This document shows positions 5,917 through 42,172 of a stretch of 52,071 bases of DNA, in pieces (the stretch's first letter is position 1; the number at the start of each line of letters is the position of its first letter). The stretch is from Candidatus Blastococcus massiliensis AP3 (lineage in GTDB: Bacteria > Actinomycetota > Actinomycetes > Mycobacteriales > Geodermatophilaceae). The notes under the pieces were generated by a model. That model was not told the DNA's origin and made no database searches. It was given only the letters and a program-made list of their open reading frames with translations. The position numbers and the translations under genes were made by a program. The DNA lies in contig NZ_HG931173.1 in assembly GCF_000582785.1 (NCBI RefSeq), forward strand, positions 686,010 through 738,080, read 5' to 3'.

Positions 5917-5974
5917 CGAGATCTGCACACTCGCCTGCGTCAGGCGCCCGATGGGGACGAGTGTGCAGATCTCG
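5917..5974 (-). repeat. Family A palindromic element, copy 1 (58 bp)
   Basis: Two perfect 17-base arms, CGAGATCTGCACACTCG and its reverse complement, enclose a 24-base loop. The element starts 7 bases past the ndk stop codon. Read in the direction of ndk transcription it matches copy 2 (42082-42139) at 51 of 58 positions, including most of the loop. The loop can itself form two small hairpins (CCC/GGG and CCTG/CAGG), giving a branched structure. It could end ndk transcription, but no T-run follows. It could also be a mobile REP-like element. Confidence 0.85.
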
Positions 5975-8202: not shown

Positions 8203-10785
8203 ATGACCACCGACATTCGCACCCCGGACGCTGCGGCCCCGGGAGCCGGCGGTGGCGTACCCGAGAAGCCGACGATCGACGGGCTCGAGGAGAAGTGGGT
8301 CCAGCGCTGGGCGGCCGAGGACACCTACGCCTTCGACCGTGCCGCCGCGCTGCAGGCTCCCCGGGAGCAGATCTACTCGATCGACACTCCCCCGCCGACG
8401 GCGTCCGGCTCGCTGCACGTCGGGCACGTGTTCAGCTACACGCACACCGACTTCGTCGCCCGCTACCAGCGCATGCGCGGCAAGCACGTCTACTACCCGA
8501 TGGGCTGGGACGACAACGGCCTGCCGACCGAGCGCCGGGTGCAGAACTACTACGGCGTGCGCTGCGACCCCGCGCTCCCCTACGACCCGACCTTCGAACC
8601 GCCCGCCAAGCCGGGCAAGGACCAGGTGCCGGTCTCGCGGCGCAACTTCGTCGAGCTGTGCATGCAGCTCACCGAGGCCGACGAGGCCGAGTTCGAGAAG
8701 CTCTGGCGCCGCGTCGGGCTCTCGGTGGACTGGTCGAACGTCTACCGCACGATCTCCGAGCGCTCCCGGGCCACGGCGCAGAAGATGTTCCTCGGCAACC
8801 TGGCCCGCGGCGAGGCCTACGCCCAGGAGGCGCCGACCCTGTGGGACGTGAGCTTCCGGACCGCCGTCGCGCAGGCCGAGCTCGAGGACCGCGAGCGCCC
8901 CGGCGCCTATCACCGGGTCTCCTTCGCCGGCCCGGCCGGCCCGGTCGTCATCGAGACCACCCGCCCCGAGCTGCTGCCCGCCTGCGTGGCCCTCGTGGCG
9001 CACCCGGACGACGAGCGCTACCAGCCGCTGTTCGGGCAGACCGTGCGGACGCCGCTGTTCGACGTCGAGGTGCCCGTCGTGGCGCACCGCCTGGCCGAGA
9101 AGGACAAGGGCTCGGGCATCGCGATGATCTGCACGTTCGGCGACCTGACCGACGTCATCTGGTGGCGCGAGCTGCAGCTGCCGACGCGCGCCGTCATCGG
9201 CTGGGACGGCCGCTTCCTCGCCGAGCCGCCGCCGGGTGTGCCCGCGCAGCCCTACGACGAGCTGGCCGGCAAGACGTCGTTCAGCGCGCAGCAGCGGATC
9301 GTCGAGCTGCTCCGGGAGTCCGGTGACCTGGAGGGCGACCCGAAGCCGATCACGCACCCGGTCAAGTTCTACGAGAAGGGCGACCGCCCGCTCGAGATCG
9401 TCACCACGCGGCAGTGGTACATCCGCAACGGCGGCCGGGACGGCGACCTGCGCGATGCCCTGGTCGCCCGCGGCCGCGAGATCCAGTGGGTGCCCGAGCA
9501 CATGCGGCACCGCTACGAGAACTGGGTCGAGGGCCTCAACGGCGACTGGCTGATCAGCCGGCAGCGGTTCTTCGGCGTTCCGTTCCCGGTCTGGTACCGG
9601 CTGGACGCCGAGGGCGAGCCGATCCACGACGAGCCGATCCTGGCCTCCGCCGAGTCGCTCCCGGTGGACCCGTCCTCCGACGTGCCGCCGGGCTTCGACG
9701 AGTCCCAGCGCGGCAAGCCGGGTGGGTTCATGGCCGATCCCGACGTCATGGACACCTGGGCGACGTCGTCGTTGTCGCCGCAGGTCGCCTCGGGCTGGGA
9801 CACCGACCCGGAGCTGTTCGCCGCCGTCTTCCCGATGGACCTCCGGCCGCAGGCGCACGACATCATCCGCACCTGGCTGTTCTCCACCGTCGTGCGCTCG
9901 CACTACGAGTTCGGCGCGGTGCCGTGGTCGCACGCGGCCATCTCCGGGTTCGTCGTCGACCCCGACCGCAAGAAGATGTCGAAGTCGAAGGGCAACGCGA
10001 CCACGCCGATCGACGTCCTGGAGCGCTACGGCACCGACGCCGTGCGCTGGCGTGCCGCGGGTGCGCGCCCGGGTGCCGACTCGCCGTTCGACGAGACGCA
10101 GATGAAGGTCGGCCGCCGGCTGGCGATGAAGATCCTCAACGTCGGCAAGTTCGTGCTGGGGCTCGGCGCCTCGGCGTCGTCGACCGTGGAGCAGGTGACC
10201 GAGCCGATCGATCTCGGCCTGCTCACCGCGCTGGGTCGCGTGGTCGACGAGGCGACGGCGGCTATGGAGGCCTACAACTACACCCGCGCGCTCGAGGTCA
10301 GCGAGACGTTCTTCTGGTCGTTCTGCGACGACTACGTGGAGCTGGTGAAGTCCCGCGCCTACGGCTCCGGGCCGGAGGCCGCGTCCGCGCAGGCGGCGCT
10401 GGCGGTGGCGCTGGAGGTGCAGCTGCGGCTGTTCGCCCCGGTGCTGCCGTTCGTGACCGAGGAGGTCTGGTCCTGGTGGCAGTCCGGCTCGGTGCACCGC
10501 GCCGCGTGGCCGGTCGCTTCCGCGCTGCCCGCGGACGGCGACCCGGCCGTGGTGAGCGCCGCCGCGGATGCGCTCGCGGGTGTCCGGAAGGCGAAGTCGG
10601 ACGCGAAGGTGTCGATGCGCGCCGACGTGGAGACCGCGACGGTCATCGCGCCGGAGTCGCAGGTGGCGCTGATCGAGGCGGCACGCGCCGACCTCGTCGA
10701 CGCCGGCCGGATCGCCACGCTGTCGGTCGTCGCCGGCGAGGGCCCGCTCACCGTCGACGTCGTCCTCGCCCCTGTCGACGCCTGA
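8203..10785 (+). CDS. valS: Valine--tRNA ligase
   Basis: Class Ia aminoacyl-tRNA synthetase charging tRNA-Val. The HIGH-type signature HVGH is at residues 72-75 and KMSKS at 591-595; the editing (CP1) domain and anticodon-binding domain follow in normal order. Its 860 residues and text such as [19 protein letters not shown] resemble the Streptomyces-type ValRS. An ATG at 8194 (MKR extension) is in frame, but the -10 box at 8190-8195 would place transcription start at the second ATG, so 8203 was chosen. In M. tuberculosis valS is co-directional with folC; here it is reversed and divergent. The stop is 12 bases before family B repeat copy 1. Confidence 0.97.
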
Positions 10786-10797
10786 CCGCCCGGCCGG

Positions 10798-10856
10798 ACC
10801 GTTGAACCCGGACGACCCACGGTCTGCCCCATCGCGGGTCGCCGGGGTTCAAGGGT
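10798..10856 (+). repeat. Family B hairpin element, copy 1
   Basis: Imperfect inverted repeat with 17-base arms (left 10802-10818, right 10836-10852; 15 of 17 bases pair) and a 17-base loop. It begins 12 bases after the valS stop. The left arm supplies a TTG codon that opens the reading frame of the next gene. The same 17+17+17 layout recurs at 11505-11563 and 12535-12593. Confidence 0.85.
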
Positions 10857-11512
10857 CGGAGGGCAGCGCCGCGCGGTTCGCGGAGCTGGCGGCGCGGGTG
10901 CCCGACCGCGGGGGCGAACACGTCGTGGTCGCGATCGACGGGGTGGACGGCGCCGGCAAGACGGTCTTCGCCGATCAGCTCGCCGCAGCGCTCCCTGCGT
11001 GCGGCCGACCAGCGGTCCGGGCGAGCGTGGACGACTTCCACCGGTCTCGGGGGGTCCGCTACCGACGCGGTCGCCGCTCTTCCGAGGGCTTCTGGCTCGA
11101 CTCCTACGACTACCCGGCCTTGGAGCGCGAGCTGCTCTATCCGCTGCGTGCCGGTGCCCCTGTCCGGCTGCGCTGGCACGACCTGGCCACCGACCGTCGG
11201 GTCGACGAGCCGCGGGTCGCCGTTCCGCCGGGTGCGGTCGTCGTGATCGACGGGCTGTTCCTGCACCGTGACGAGCTCGTCGACCATTGGGACTTCTCCG
11301 TCTGGCTGGACGTGCCCTTCGCGGTCACCGCGGCCCGGATGGCGGTTCGCGACGGAACGCCGGCCGATCCCGACGATCCGGCAATGGCGCGGTACGTGGG
11401 CGGGCAGCGGCTGTACTTCGACGCCTGCGGGCCGTGGGACCGGGCCGACGTCGTCGTCGACAACACCGACTGGACCTCCCCGCGGTTCGTTCGGCGGCCC
11501 TCCGACCGTTGA
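10802..11512 (+). CDS. Uridine-kinase-like P-loop protein
   Basis: A 236-codon frame for a P-loop NTPase of the uridine kinase / phosphoribulokinase-like group. Walker A is GVDGAGKT at residues 47-54, followed by SVDDFHRSR and a Walker B-like VVVIDGLFLHRDEL strand. These hypothetical nucleoside-kinase-like proteins are common in actinobacteria; the substrate is not known. The start is uncertain. The only upstream codon is a TTG inside the family B repeat, without a clear ribosome site. GTG at 10898 has GGAG 12 bases upstream but would remove residues (RFAELAARV) that look like part of the domain. The TGA stop lies inside repeat copy 2. The gene is not part of the mycobacterial core order, so it is accessory here. 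Confidence 0.72.
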   Translation: MNPDDPRSAPSRVAGVQGSEGSAARFAELAARVPDRGGEHVVVAIDGVDGAGKTVFADQLAAALPACGRPAVRASVDDFHRSRGVRYRRGRRSSEGFWLDSYDYPALERELLYPLRAGAPVRLRWHDLATDRRVDEPRVAVPPGAVVVIDGLFLHRDELVDHWDFSVWLDVPFAVTAARMAVRDGTPADPDDPAMARYVGGQRLYFDACGPWDRADVVVDNTDWTSPRFVRRPSDR

Positions 11513-11563
11513 ACCCCGGCGACCCGCCGCCGGGCCCGTCGTGGGTCGCGGGGGTTCAACGGT
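11505..11563 (+). repeat. Family B hairpin element, copy 2
   Basis: The left arm TTGAACCCCGGCGACCC (11509-11525) pairs with the right arm at 11543-11559, with one mismatch, across a 17-base loop. ACCG and CGGT at the ends extend the stem to 21 bases. The stop codon of the kinase-like gene (TGA at 11510-11512) lies in the left arm. Confidence 0.88.
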
Positions 11564-11618
11564 TCCCCCGTCCACAGGCCGCCAGCGGCGAGTCCCGCCG
11601 GTCGGCCAGCCTGTCAGG

Positions 11619-12542
11619 GTGCCCCGGCCGGTCGACCTCCTCCCCCAGGGCGTCGCGCGCCGCTCGGACGTCGCCGCGTCCGCCAGCACCAGCACCGTCG
11701 GACGCTGGTTGGCCGCGGGTGAGCTGCTGCTGGTGGCGCCGGGTGTAGTCGCGCTGCCCGACCGCACGCAGCGGTGGGAGGACCGTGCGCGGGCGGCGAC
11801 CCTGTACGCGGATGCACCGTTGAGCCACCTGTCCGCGCTCACCGCGGCGGGGCTCGTTCGCCGGACCGCCGGACCGCTGCACGTGACGGTCGGGCTCGAG
11901 CGCTGCCTCCGCGACGCCCCGGACGTCTGGGTCCACCGCTCAGGACGGCGTCTCGCCACGATCCGCTGCGACGGCCTCGAGGTCGTCGAGCCGGCGCGGA
12001 GTCTCGTCGACGCGTGGTCGTGGGCGTGGTCGCCCGTCCGGAACGAGCGCGCGGAAGCCGAACGCTCCCTGGTGCGGCAGGCGGTCATCGAGGCGGTGCG
12101 GACCCGGGAAGTCCGGGCCCCGGCGGTACGGCGTGAGTCGGACCGGATGCCGCGCCATGCCGGTCGAGCGGAGCTGGTCGCGCTGCTCGAGCTGATCGGA
12201 CGCGGGTGCCAGAGCGAGCTGGAGATCTTCGGGGTGCAGCACGTGCTCCCGGGCCCACCGGCGGTGCCGGCCTACCTCCAGCAGCACCGGGTCGTCCTCC
12301 CCGACGGACGGGCCGCCGACCTGGACGCCGCGTGGCCGGAGGCCCGGGTCGCCGTGGAGCTGGACGGCGCCGCCTTCCACGGCAGCCGCGAGGCTCGCGA
12401 GCGGGATCTGCGCCGCGACAACGCACTCGCCACGCTGGGCTGGGTGGTCCTGCGCTTCAGCTACGAGCGGCTGATCAACGATCCGCTGGGATGCCGGCGC
12501 GAGATCGAGACCGTCGTGCGCCGGCGACTGCTGGACCGTTGA
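11619..12542 (+). CDS. AbiEi-like / DUF559 endonuclease-fold protein
   Basis: A protein of about 307 residues. The N-terminal part ([20 protein letters not shown], then [14 protein letters not shown]) resembles the winged-helix AbiEi antitoxin-like domain. The C-terminal part is DUF559, a Vsr-like PD-(D/E)xK nuclease fold: Asp236, then VAVELDG with Glu247 and Asp249, then a basic RERDLRRDN helix and [12 protein letters not shown]. Such AbiEi-N/DUF559 proteins are numerous in actinobacteria and their role is undefined. No toxin partner is encoded next to it. The GTG at 11619 is the only reasonable start after the repeat, but its ribosome site is poor. The stop codon lies inside family B copy 3. 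Confidence 0.75.
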
Positions 12543-12593
12543 ACCCCGGCGACCCAGGACGCGGGCCTCTCTGGGTCGCCCAGGTTCAACGGT
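12535..12593 (+). repeat. Family B hairpin element, copy 3
   Basis: The left arm (12539-12555) is identical to that of copy 2. The right arm (12573-12589) pairs at 15 of 17 positions, the loop is 17 bases, and outer ACCG/CGGT bases extend the stem. It contains the TGA (12540-12542) of the DUF559 gene. The loop sequence differs from the other copies while its length is constant. Confidence 0.88.
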
Positions 12594-12610: not shown

Positions 12611-12639
12611 ACGGCCCGCCCCCGGTGGGGACGGGCCGT
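12611..12639 (-). terminator. clpX terminator hairpin
   Basis: ACGGCCCG and CGGGCCGT arms with a C/G-paired interior form a strong hairpin 14 bases after the clpX stop, followed on the minus strand by TTCG. It separates clpX from the convergent plus-strand block. Confidence 0.7.
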
Positions 12640-12653
12640 CGACGCTGGTCGCG

Positions 12654-13928
<1,275 letters not shown>

Positions 13929-14251
13929 CTGCTGACCTCCACCTCGGAATCGCAAGCCTGGTGCCAGGAACCTGCGTCGTCATCGTTGCTGTTCGCCCCT
14001 GCACGTCCTCGCTCCGCGAGGCTCTCCTCCCGGCGCTTCCGGCCGGGGTTTCGGGCGCCCGCCGAACGTACCTGCCGCCACCGACGCGGCCGGGCAATGA
14101 CTCACCCGGGTTCCTCGCCGGCTGTCCCACTTCCGTACCGCTCGCCTCTCGATCCCACCCCCTCGCGGGAGTGCCCTCCAGACCCGCTGGAACCTTCGAC
14201 GGTACGGGCCGAGGACGCGACACGCGCGCCCTCCGCCCGTACCGACGCGGG
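13929..14251 (-). other. clpP2-clpX intergenic region
   Basis: There is no credible coding frame in these 323 bases. A 10-bp perfect inverted repeat sits just after clpP2 and is listed separately. The rest presumably carries the clpX promoter and leader. I see no clear palindromic ClgR box; only the half-site-like GTTCGCC appears, near 13992. Confidence 0.5.
14200..14244 (-). terminator. Hairpin after clpP2
   Basis: CGGTACGGGC (14200-14209) and GCCCGTACCG (14235-14244) pair perfectly across 25 bases, starting 7 bases past the clpP2 stop. It could end or attenuate clpP1-clpP2 transcription before clpX. Confidence 0.5.
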
Positions 14252-22606: not shown

Positions 22607-22623
22607 GCAGCGACCCGAACCGC

Positions 22624-22656
22624 AGCGGCCCGTTCCCACCCCGGGAACGGGCCGCT
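22624..22656. terminator. Bidirectional terminator
   Basis: A perfect 14-bp stem, AGCGGCCCGTTCCC with GGGAACGGGCCGCT and a 5-base loop. It lies between the convergent secreted-protein gene and sigma-factor gene and can serve both. Confidence 0.85.
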
Positions 22657-22693
22657 CCGGTTCACAGCGGCGCGCGGGACGGGCCGGGAAGCC

Positions 22694-28413: not shown

Positions 28414-28467
28414 GGACTTTCGGCGCCGAAAGTCCCGGGGCGGCCCGGACTTCCGGCGCCGCAAGCC
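28414..28467. repeat. Tandem palindromes after the SDR gene
   Basis: GGACTTTCGGCGCCGAAAGTCC (28414-28435) minus its end bases contains a perfect CTTTCGGCGCCGAAAG core; the whole 22 bases are self-complementary. A degenerate second copy with the same CGGCGCCG centre follows at 28447-28467, one base before the SDR stop codon. Its family membership is unknown. It may act as a double terminator for the SDR gene. Confidence 0.75.
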
Positions 28468-28468
28468 C

Positions 28469-42067: not shown

Positions 42068-42081
42068 GCCTTCCGGGGGGG

Positions 42082-42139
42082 CGAGATCTGCGCACTCGTC
42101 CCCATCAGGGGCCTGAAGGCGCCGAGTGTGCAGATCTCG
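42082..42139 (+). repeat. Family A palindromic element, copy 2 (58 bp)
   Basis: Arms CGAGATCTGCGCACTCG (42082-42098) and CGAGTGTGCAGATCTCG (42123-42139) pair with one G-T wobble around a 24-base loop. The loop contains CCCC/GGGG and CCT/AGG mini-stems. It is the counterpart of 5917-5974, in the same orientation relative to the upstream gene (glbO here). It ends 33 bases before the aglA start. Confidence 0.85.
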
Positions 42140-42172
42140 TCGCCATCCGATCCCACGAGCACGAGGAGTCCG

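Follow-up and report, generated by a model that had tools for sequence, protein, structure and literature searches.

Matched hairpins around DUF559 genes of Blastococcus suggest a hitherto undescribed type of small mobile DNA element

REP and REPIN palindromes occur together with RAYT proteins (TnpA-REP, the units being termed 'REPtrons'). These palindromes flank a low-copy nuclease gene, are dispersed extragenically, and form gene-specific families (PMC3116915, PMC3733652). Inverted repeats are also bound by AbiEi antitoxins; AbiEi and Rv2827c bind such repeats in promoters and autoregulate (PMC7319586). Here we analyzed a window of 52,071 nucleotides (nt) from Candidatus Blastococcus massiliensis AP3 (contig NZ_HG931173.1, positions 686,010 to 738,080), in which three long hairpins of one family (family B) lie between valS and clpX, with copies 2 and 3 bracketing a gene for a DUF559 protein. 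Bracketed DUF559 genes and the scattered copies of their hairpins point to a small mobile DNA element of a type not described before. No description of such a system came out of literature searches, largely without subscription papers, that combined DUF559 with hairpins, with actinobacteria, with AbiEi, or with mobile elements, or that looked for palindrome-flanked endonuclease genes.

The DUF559 protein as the common partner of the hairpins had been overlooked by an earlier note on this DNA. The source genome carries nine DUF559 genes. Six of these had a hairpin with a score of at least 13 at both ends, and the hairpin sequence differed from gene to gene. The Blastococcus sample comprised 77 of 128 DUF559 matches, namely the nine own genes, 28 that were returned, and 40 from further down the E-value list, picked before inspection. 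Among these 77 loci, a hairpin was present in the 5' zone of 49 and in the 3' zone of 46; 34 loci had both and 16 had neither. These zones presume a gene of ~300 amino acids (aa), and odd-sized genes were scored as misses. In comparison, 707 control open reading frames (ORFs), drawn from three genomes (1.25 Mb in total), included 15 with a 5' hairpin, 46 with a 3' hairpin, and a single one with both, which was the window DUF559 gene itself.

The two hairpins of a bracket were alike. Mean similarity in the 34 bracket pairs was 37.2 within a gene and 11.2 between different genes, and 32 pairs scored above the maximum of 680 random-hairpin trials. Hairpin similarity also rose with protein similarity (Mantel test, r = 0.76, 44 genes, none of 2000 permutations as high). 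Single linkage grouped the hairpins into nine clusters, the loci including orthologs. An unbiased scan of the 1.25 Mb that had supplied the control ORFs for similar hairpins (score of at least 30) within 4 kb yielded six pairs, of which three were among the window copies, one was around a DUF559 gene of genome G006, and two were in repetitive coding sequence.

In the window, sequence and folds bore out the positions that the earlier note had given for the three family-B hairpins, together with their places behind valS, a kinase-like gene and the DUF559 gene, respectively, and the stop codons of the preceding genes in the left arms of copies 2 and 3 (Table 1). All three copies shared a 53-nt core, GTTGAACC-N37-GGTTCAA(C or G), and RNA folding gave −36.4, −46.7, and −41.1 kcal/mol for copies 1, 2, and 3 (z of −4.3, −5.4, and −5.7). 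The GGTTCAA of the hairpin bears some resemblance to a tRNA-derived element. A fixed-length pattern with at most three mismatches was found at 11 places of the 3.87-Mb genome, nine of which were family-B hairpins (the three in the window and six elsewhere) and two chance matches; the reversed pattern had no match in the same genome. The three window hairpins are not due to chance. Nor are they unique to this spot, the case that the earlier note had set against its own proposal. Its constant 17-base free loop did not survive inspection, as folding paired some of the central 17 bases in each of the three copies. By inspection and alignment, five of six sister copies with identical core length paired down to a 5-nt loop; folding energies for three members of this set of six ranged from −45.7 to −55.2 kcal/mol. 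The '17-base loop' is an inner stem, partly decayed, and the constant feature of the family is the total length, not the loop. Two-sided changes preserved palindromy at 12 of 27 pairs in 10 aligned copies, and none of 500 shuffles matched the covariation score. Across the genus, the exact pattern matched in just 2 of 23 genomes because the hairpin sequence varies among species, and a covariance model had matches in all 23. Copy counts from this model are not totals, since its first pass scored 150 of ~15,000 candidates per genome; its rows include both strands, and nine of its ten training sequences come from the source genome.

Hairpins also occurred as solo copies. Three of these in the window, likewise overlooked by the earlier note, matched bracket hairpins belonging to two further DUF559 genes of the source genome. 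In a comparison of 452 kb of the source genome with its own DUF559 brackets, gene L223 matched two window solos and gene L227 matched the third and one more hairpin. This comparison also recovered window copies 1–3; two further weak matches looked like chance, and three foreign bracket families had no match in the 452 kb.

The hairpin GGCATAGG..CCTATGCC brackets the DUF559 gene of loci L232–L240. Across the 23 genomes, this family had 13–34 copies in each of G004, G005, G006, G008, G020, and G022 (bracket copies included), 1–2 copies in five genomes, and none in 12. A cognate DUF559 gene (at least 70% identity) was found in G004–G008, G015, G020, and G021. Five of the eight genomes with a cognate gene had at least 10 copies, compared to one of the 15 genomes without (p = 0.009). 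In a copy-by-copy comparison of the hairpins of G004–G006, the length was 60 nt in 66 of 69 copies, the two arms of each copy were alike beyond the level given by the arms of other copies, and the solos of G005 and G006 were closest to the brackets of their own gene. A rough gene finder called 19 of 19 GGCATAGG loci and seven of nine family-B loci intergenic; it wrongly took the remaining two family-B loci, window copies 1 and 2, for coding sequence. As a side observation, the assembly shows NN at the tip of the L240 5' hairpin, and such palindromes may break short-read assemblies.

The hairpins were placed at gene ends. Among 28 solo or window places, the gap between the hairpin and the preceding stop codon was often in the range of −7 to +30 nt. 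The classification of neighbouring genes excluded window copies 1 and 2, leaving 26 places, and L013, with one callable neighbour, was entered as not divergent and not counted as convergent. No classed place was between divergent genes, compared to 116 of 534 background gaps, and 15 of the 26 were between convergent genes, compared to 112 of 534.

Hairpin sites were also in different states in different genomes. Four GGCATAGG solos lie in 400 kb of G006. One orthologous site was empty in G021 and another held a decayed copy there; the third had different hairpins in G021 and the source genome, that of the source genome being a shorter GGACTTTCGG palindrome. The fourth gap contained a bracketed DUF559 gene in the source genome, G010, G014, and G016, and neither gene nor hairpin in G021. 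The same gene ends are therefore used repeatedly by different hairpin families. The L224 site was occupied by a DUF559 gene at four loci (source genome, G010, G014, and G016) and empty in G006 and G021, which are different species, not alleles.

The valS–clpX interval was compared across the 23 Blastococcus genomes. A DUF559 gene was present in the interval in 22 of them (G008 lacked it), on the opposite strand in four (G004, G013, G015, and G016). In many genomes the gene was flanked by long hairpins whose sequences differed, with types GTTGAAC or GAACC, GCGTTG(T/C/G)CC, GATGTGCGC, and GTGTGCGCTGATG. When 86 DUF559 proteins were placed in a tree, the holders of this slot (21 rows, the G016 slot protein not among them) were spread over several lineages with five label changes, at least four of which were forced by well-supported branches, and the type of the detected bracket hairpins tracked the DUF559 lineage. 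Between copies 1 and 2, the source genome and G003 carry a PRK-family kinase gene, and B. aggregatus carries an opposite-strand DUF1697 gene; the content between hairpins has therefore been exchanged. Bracketed DUF559 genes were also present in this interval in named Geodermatophilus and Modestobacter species. The slot was empty in Klenkia terrae (~200 nt, with an unrelated 68-nt hairpin at L103 8575–8642 and a terminator) and in a Modestobacter MAG (~180 nt, terminator only). The core of the K. terrae gap terminator, AGAGGCCCGGAACC, is close to that of the family-B solos. The earlier note had proposed that the hairpins may be mobile and cap genes, or may bound inserted cassettes. The solos at gene 3' ends, the DUF559 cassette bounded by copies 2 and 3 (an arrangement recurring at 34 of the 77 Blastococcus loci), and the differing slot content agree in part with these proposals; the mobility itself, of hairpin or of whole unit, is what we infer.

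Beyond the genus, PF04480 (DUF559) matched in 74 of 197 sampled Actinomycetota genomes. Sixteen of 55 loci outside Blastococcus, from 11 genomes of eight families, had a matched hairpin pair at the gene ends (hairpin score of at least 10, similarity of at least 18). Controls gave none in 958 when hairpins were exchanged between loci and none in 376 when positions were shifted. These 55 loci were 15 of the 29 loci L300–L328 and 40 further loci; the 14 excluded were L300–L307 (short or different proteins) and L311, L315–L318, and L322 (contig edge, very long or short frame). When the pairs within Blastococcus and those beyond it were taken together (50 in all), 20 were in direct orientation, three were inverted, and 27 were too symmetric to call. 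Direct copies would be the expected trace of a gene-plus-hairpin unit joining at an existing hairpin. At the excluded locus L307 (G158), hairpins built of TGTTTCACGTGAAACA, the parS motif, stand on either side of a short DUF559 gene (−649..−586 and −1..+45 from its stop).

PADLOC models and fold searches, which cover only listed folds, assigned the N-terminal half of the window DUF559 protein to a predicted AbiEi-like winged helix, and the C-terminal half to a predicted nuclease fold of the Vsr/MTES_1575 type, that of a known homing-endonuclease family. The putative catalytic residues are intact and conserved in the sequence. No AbiEii partner toxin was found in the window interval, where the Pfam-scanned neighbours were the PRK-family kinase, valS, and clpX.

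Table 1 Positions of hairpins and genes in the window
Feature	Position	Strand	Remarks
Hairpin copy 1, family B	10798..10856	.	Between valS and kinase-like gene; 68.3 bits as training sequence
Hairpin copy 2, family B	11505..11563	.	5' bracket of DUF559 gene; left arm holds stop of kinase-like gene (TGA 11510-11512); −1037..−979 from DUF559 stop in locus L225
Hairpin copy 3, family B	12535..12593	.	3' bracket of DUF559 gene; left arm holds DUF559 stop (TGA 12540-12542); −7..+51 from that stop in L225
DUF559 gene, 307 aa	11619..12542	+	Start inferred by alignment with B. aggregatus
Kinase-like gene (PF00485)	10802..11512	+	In slot between copies 1 and 2; start uncertain, first TTG inside copy 1
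Slot between copies 1 and 2	10857-11504		Content compared; L083 8544-9233
valS	8206..10785	+	Left anchor of interval; stop ends 10785
clpX	12654..13955	-	Right anchor, converges on interval; start uncertain
Short clpX hairpin	12611..12639	-	Ordinary terminator form, outside family; L225 1776-1804
Further family-B-type hairpin (GAACC..GGTTC)	22612..22670	.	Fully paired; 47.9 bits; fold −43 kcal/mol
Solo hairpin CGAGATCTGCACACTCG..	5917..5974	.	Matches brackets of DUF559 gene L223 (same genome); similarity 44
Solo hairpin CGAGATCTGCACACTCG..	42077..42144	.	Also matches L223 brackets; similarity 43
Solo hairpin, GGACTTTCGGCGCCGAAAGTCC family	28414..28468	.	Matches brackets of DUF559 gene L227 (same genome); similarity 39; unit is a 22-nt palindrome, used twice

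Taken together, matched brackets, co-divergence, dispersal, and site turnover make it the simplest account that the protein acts on its own hairpin. We consider it probable that a DUF559 protein has its cognate DNA site in the hairpin that stands on either side of its gene, and that gene and private palindromes form a small selfish or domesticated element, similar to REP/RAYT with an unrelated enzyme. The AbiEi-like half would bind the inverted repeat, as duplex or as extruded hairpin, and the Vsr/homing-endonuclease-fold half would nick or cut at the hairpin. Either repair that uses another copy, or recombination by a single crossover at a hairpin, could then add, move, or remove a hairpin alone, leaving solos, or the whole hairpin–gene–hairpin unit. 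Insertions might persist at gene 3' ends, where a long palindrome would do no harm or would help by terminating transcription in both directions, and the inserted palindrome may provide a stop codon. The balance is about even for a wider claim, that of a new class of mobile or domesticated element across Actinomycetota, in which an AbiEi-winged-helix/Vsr-fold nuclease would recognise its own ~60-nt palindrome, the palindrome would act at once as a bracket, a site of recombination, and a repeat that disperses, and lock-and-key co-evolution would have produced dozens of independent specificities. 

Several observations weigh against a protein acting on its own hairpin. At the thresholds used, 43 of the 77 Blastococcus loci and 39 of the 55 outside loci were without the full signal, and the bracket pair of L274 was unmatched. 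What was seen is different states in different species, not movement as such. Insertion sequences and MITEs have terminal inverted repeats with a target-site duplication; no target duplication was evident at the four solo sites inspected, where the flanks have diverged. Copies and cognate genes did not always coincide: G022 had 13 GGCATAGG copies and no cognate gene of at least 70% identity (these are possibly orphans left after gene loss), and G010, G011, and G019 carried 1–2 copies without such a gene. Conversely, G015 and G021 had the cognate gene with two exact copies each, and G007 had none (a GGCATGGG variant). The solos of G004 were nearer to the G006 brackets (13.1 of 16) than to their own (11.1). 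Several valS–clpX intervals carried unlike hairpins side by side, for example G005 and G019, in which hairpins of other types lay beside the valS or clpX end. The hairpins could also be terminators homogenised by local conversion.

This last possibility belongs to an explanation in which the hairpins are ordinary two-way intrinsic terminators, the DUF559 genes sit in convergent or isolated spots, and neighbouring hairpins became alike through gene conversion or template switching. The long stable stems at 3' ends, the absence of divergent and the excess of convergent places, the complementary arms kept by each copy, and the unrelated solo hairpin with terminator in the empty gap of K. terrae speak for it. 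It does not account for a 5' bracket upstream of the gene, for matched pairs that track the protein and not the locus in the Mantel test, or for dispersed copies that share their sequence and, in 66 of 69 cases, measure exactly 60 nt. Terminators of Actinomycetota may be without a T run; none of the three window copies is followed by one, and a separate short terminator of clpX exists. Among the control ORFs, 46 had a 3' hairpin but only one had both. We regard terminators as an unlikely full explanation, and on the same points rejected gene conversion alone; terminator action would not exclude the DUF559 protein as the partner of the hairpins, with which it is compatible. Quite unlikely, in our judgement, is that the hairpins are operators for autoregulation by DUF559, with the 3' copy and the solos as further targets of the regulator. 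The AbiEi-like N-terminal half, the autoregulation of AbiEi and Rv2827c through promoter inverted repeats (PMC7319586), and the hairpin directly upstream of the gene fit this view, but the matched copy at the stop codon and the solos at 3' ends of unrelated genes, with copy numbers up to 34, would be unexplained, and the conserved nuclease half would have no role.

It is very unlikely that the DUF559 proteins are defence or toxin–antitoxin nucleases, with hairpins acting as a mark of self or as carriers of an RNA partner. The AbiEi-type half points in this direction, as do weak matches between the C-terminal half and PADLOC and NCBIfam models of anti-phage proteins, but all C-terminal matches were far under the model cut-offs, the window interval has no partner toxin gene, and dispersal is not predicted. 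A Y1 (HUH) transposase moving the palindromes as in REPIN/RAYT, with the DUF559 genes as passengers, would give the same overall picture of a palindrome-flanked gene and dispersed palindromes; we hold it to be scarcely credible and rejected RAYT, because PF01797 was found in none of the 23 Blastococcus genomes and in 5 of 14 controls, including E. coli. Two other candidates were also rejected. A DNA-uptake sequence would be expected genome-wide, but TTGAAC or GTTCAA occurred 15 times in the window, six of these in the three hairpins, so there is no genome-wide signal. For an attC site, judged by the attC box consensus, the outer boxes are wrongly oriented and other hairpin families do not keep the boxes.

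If hairpins are indeed the sites of DUF559 proteins, this very common protein of unknown function would gain a DNA partner that is evident directly from the genome sequence, and an owner would be found for many of the unexplained intergenic hairpins in these G+C-rich genomes. The system would represent a second and independent evolutionary solution to the spread of short palindromes in bacterial genomes, and would offer many natural protein/hairpin pairs for tests of specificity.

Compared with known systems, the hairpins resemble bidirectional intrinsic terminators in their stable stems at 3' ends and their convergent gaps, and differ in conserved sequence families and the upstream 5' copy; an intrinsic terminator is a G+C-rich hairpin followed by a T run, and these are stable hairpins without it. 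The AbiEi family, which binds inverted repeats (PMC7319586), is like the predicted N-terminal half of DUF559; here that half is fused to a predicted nuclease-fold domain, palindromes stand at both ends, and, unlike in AbiE type IV toxin–antitoxin systems, no AbiEii gene adjoins in the window interval. Unlike members of the Vsr/TnsA/MTES_1575 superfamily, the gene has no mismatch-repair or Tn7 neighbours in the window interval. Free-standing homing endonucleases such as I-Bth0305I (Vsr-like, 'EDxHD') share the predicted fold, and occupied and empty states were found at the L224 site across different species; however, the DUF559 genes here are not in an intron or intein, and their putative target is kept at both gene ends and dispersed as solos. 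With REPtrons, the DUF559 system shares a flanked low-copy nuclease gene and extragenically dispersed palindromes in gene-specific families, but the flanked gene is DUF559, not Y1/HUH, the palindromes are ~45–70 nt, the enzyme is predicted to consist of AbiEi-like and Vsr-fold halves, and the system is found in Actinomycetota. Because the enzyme, repeats, and lineage differ from those of REP/RAYT and the search for the Y1 enzyme was negative in the 23 Blastococcus genomes, we call the system new in kind, though working like a known kind.
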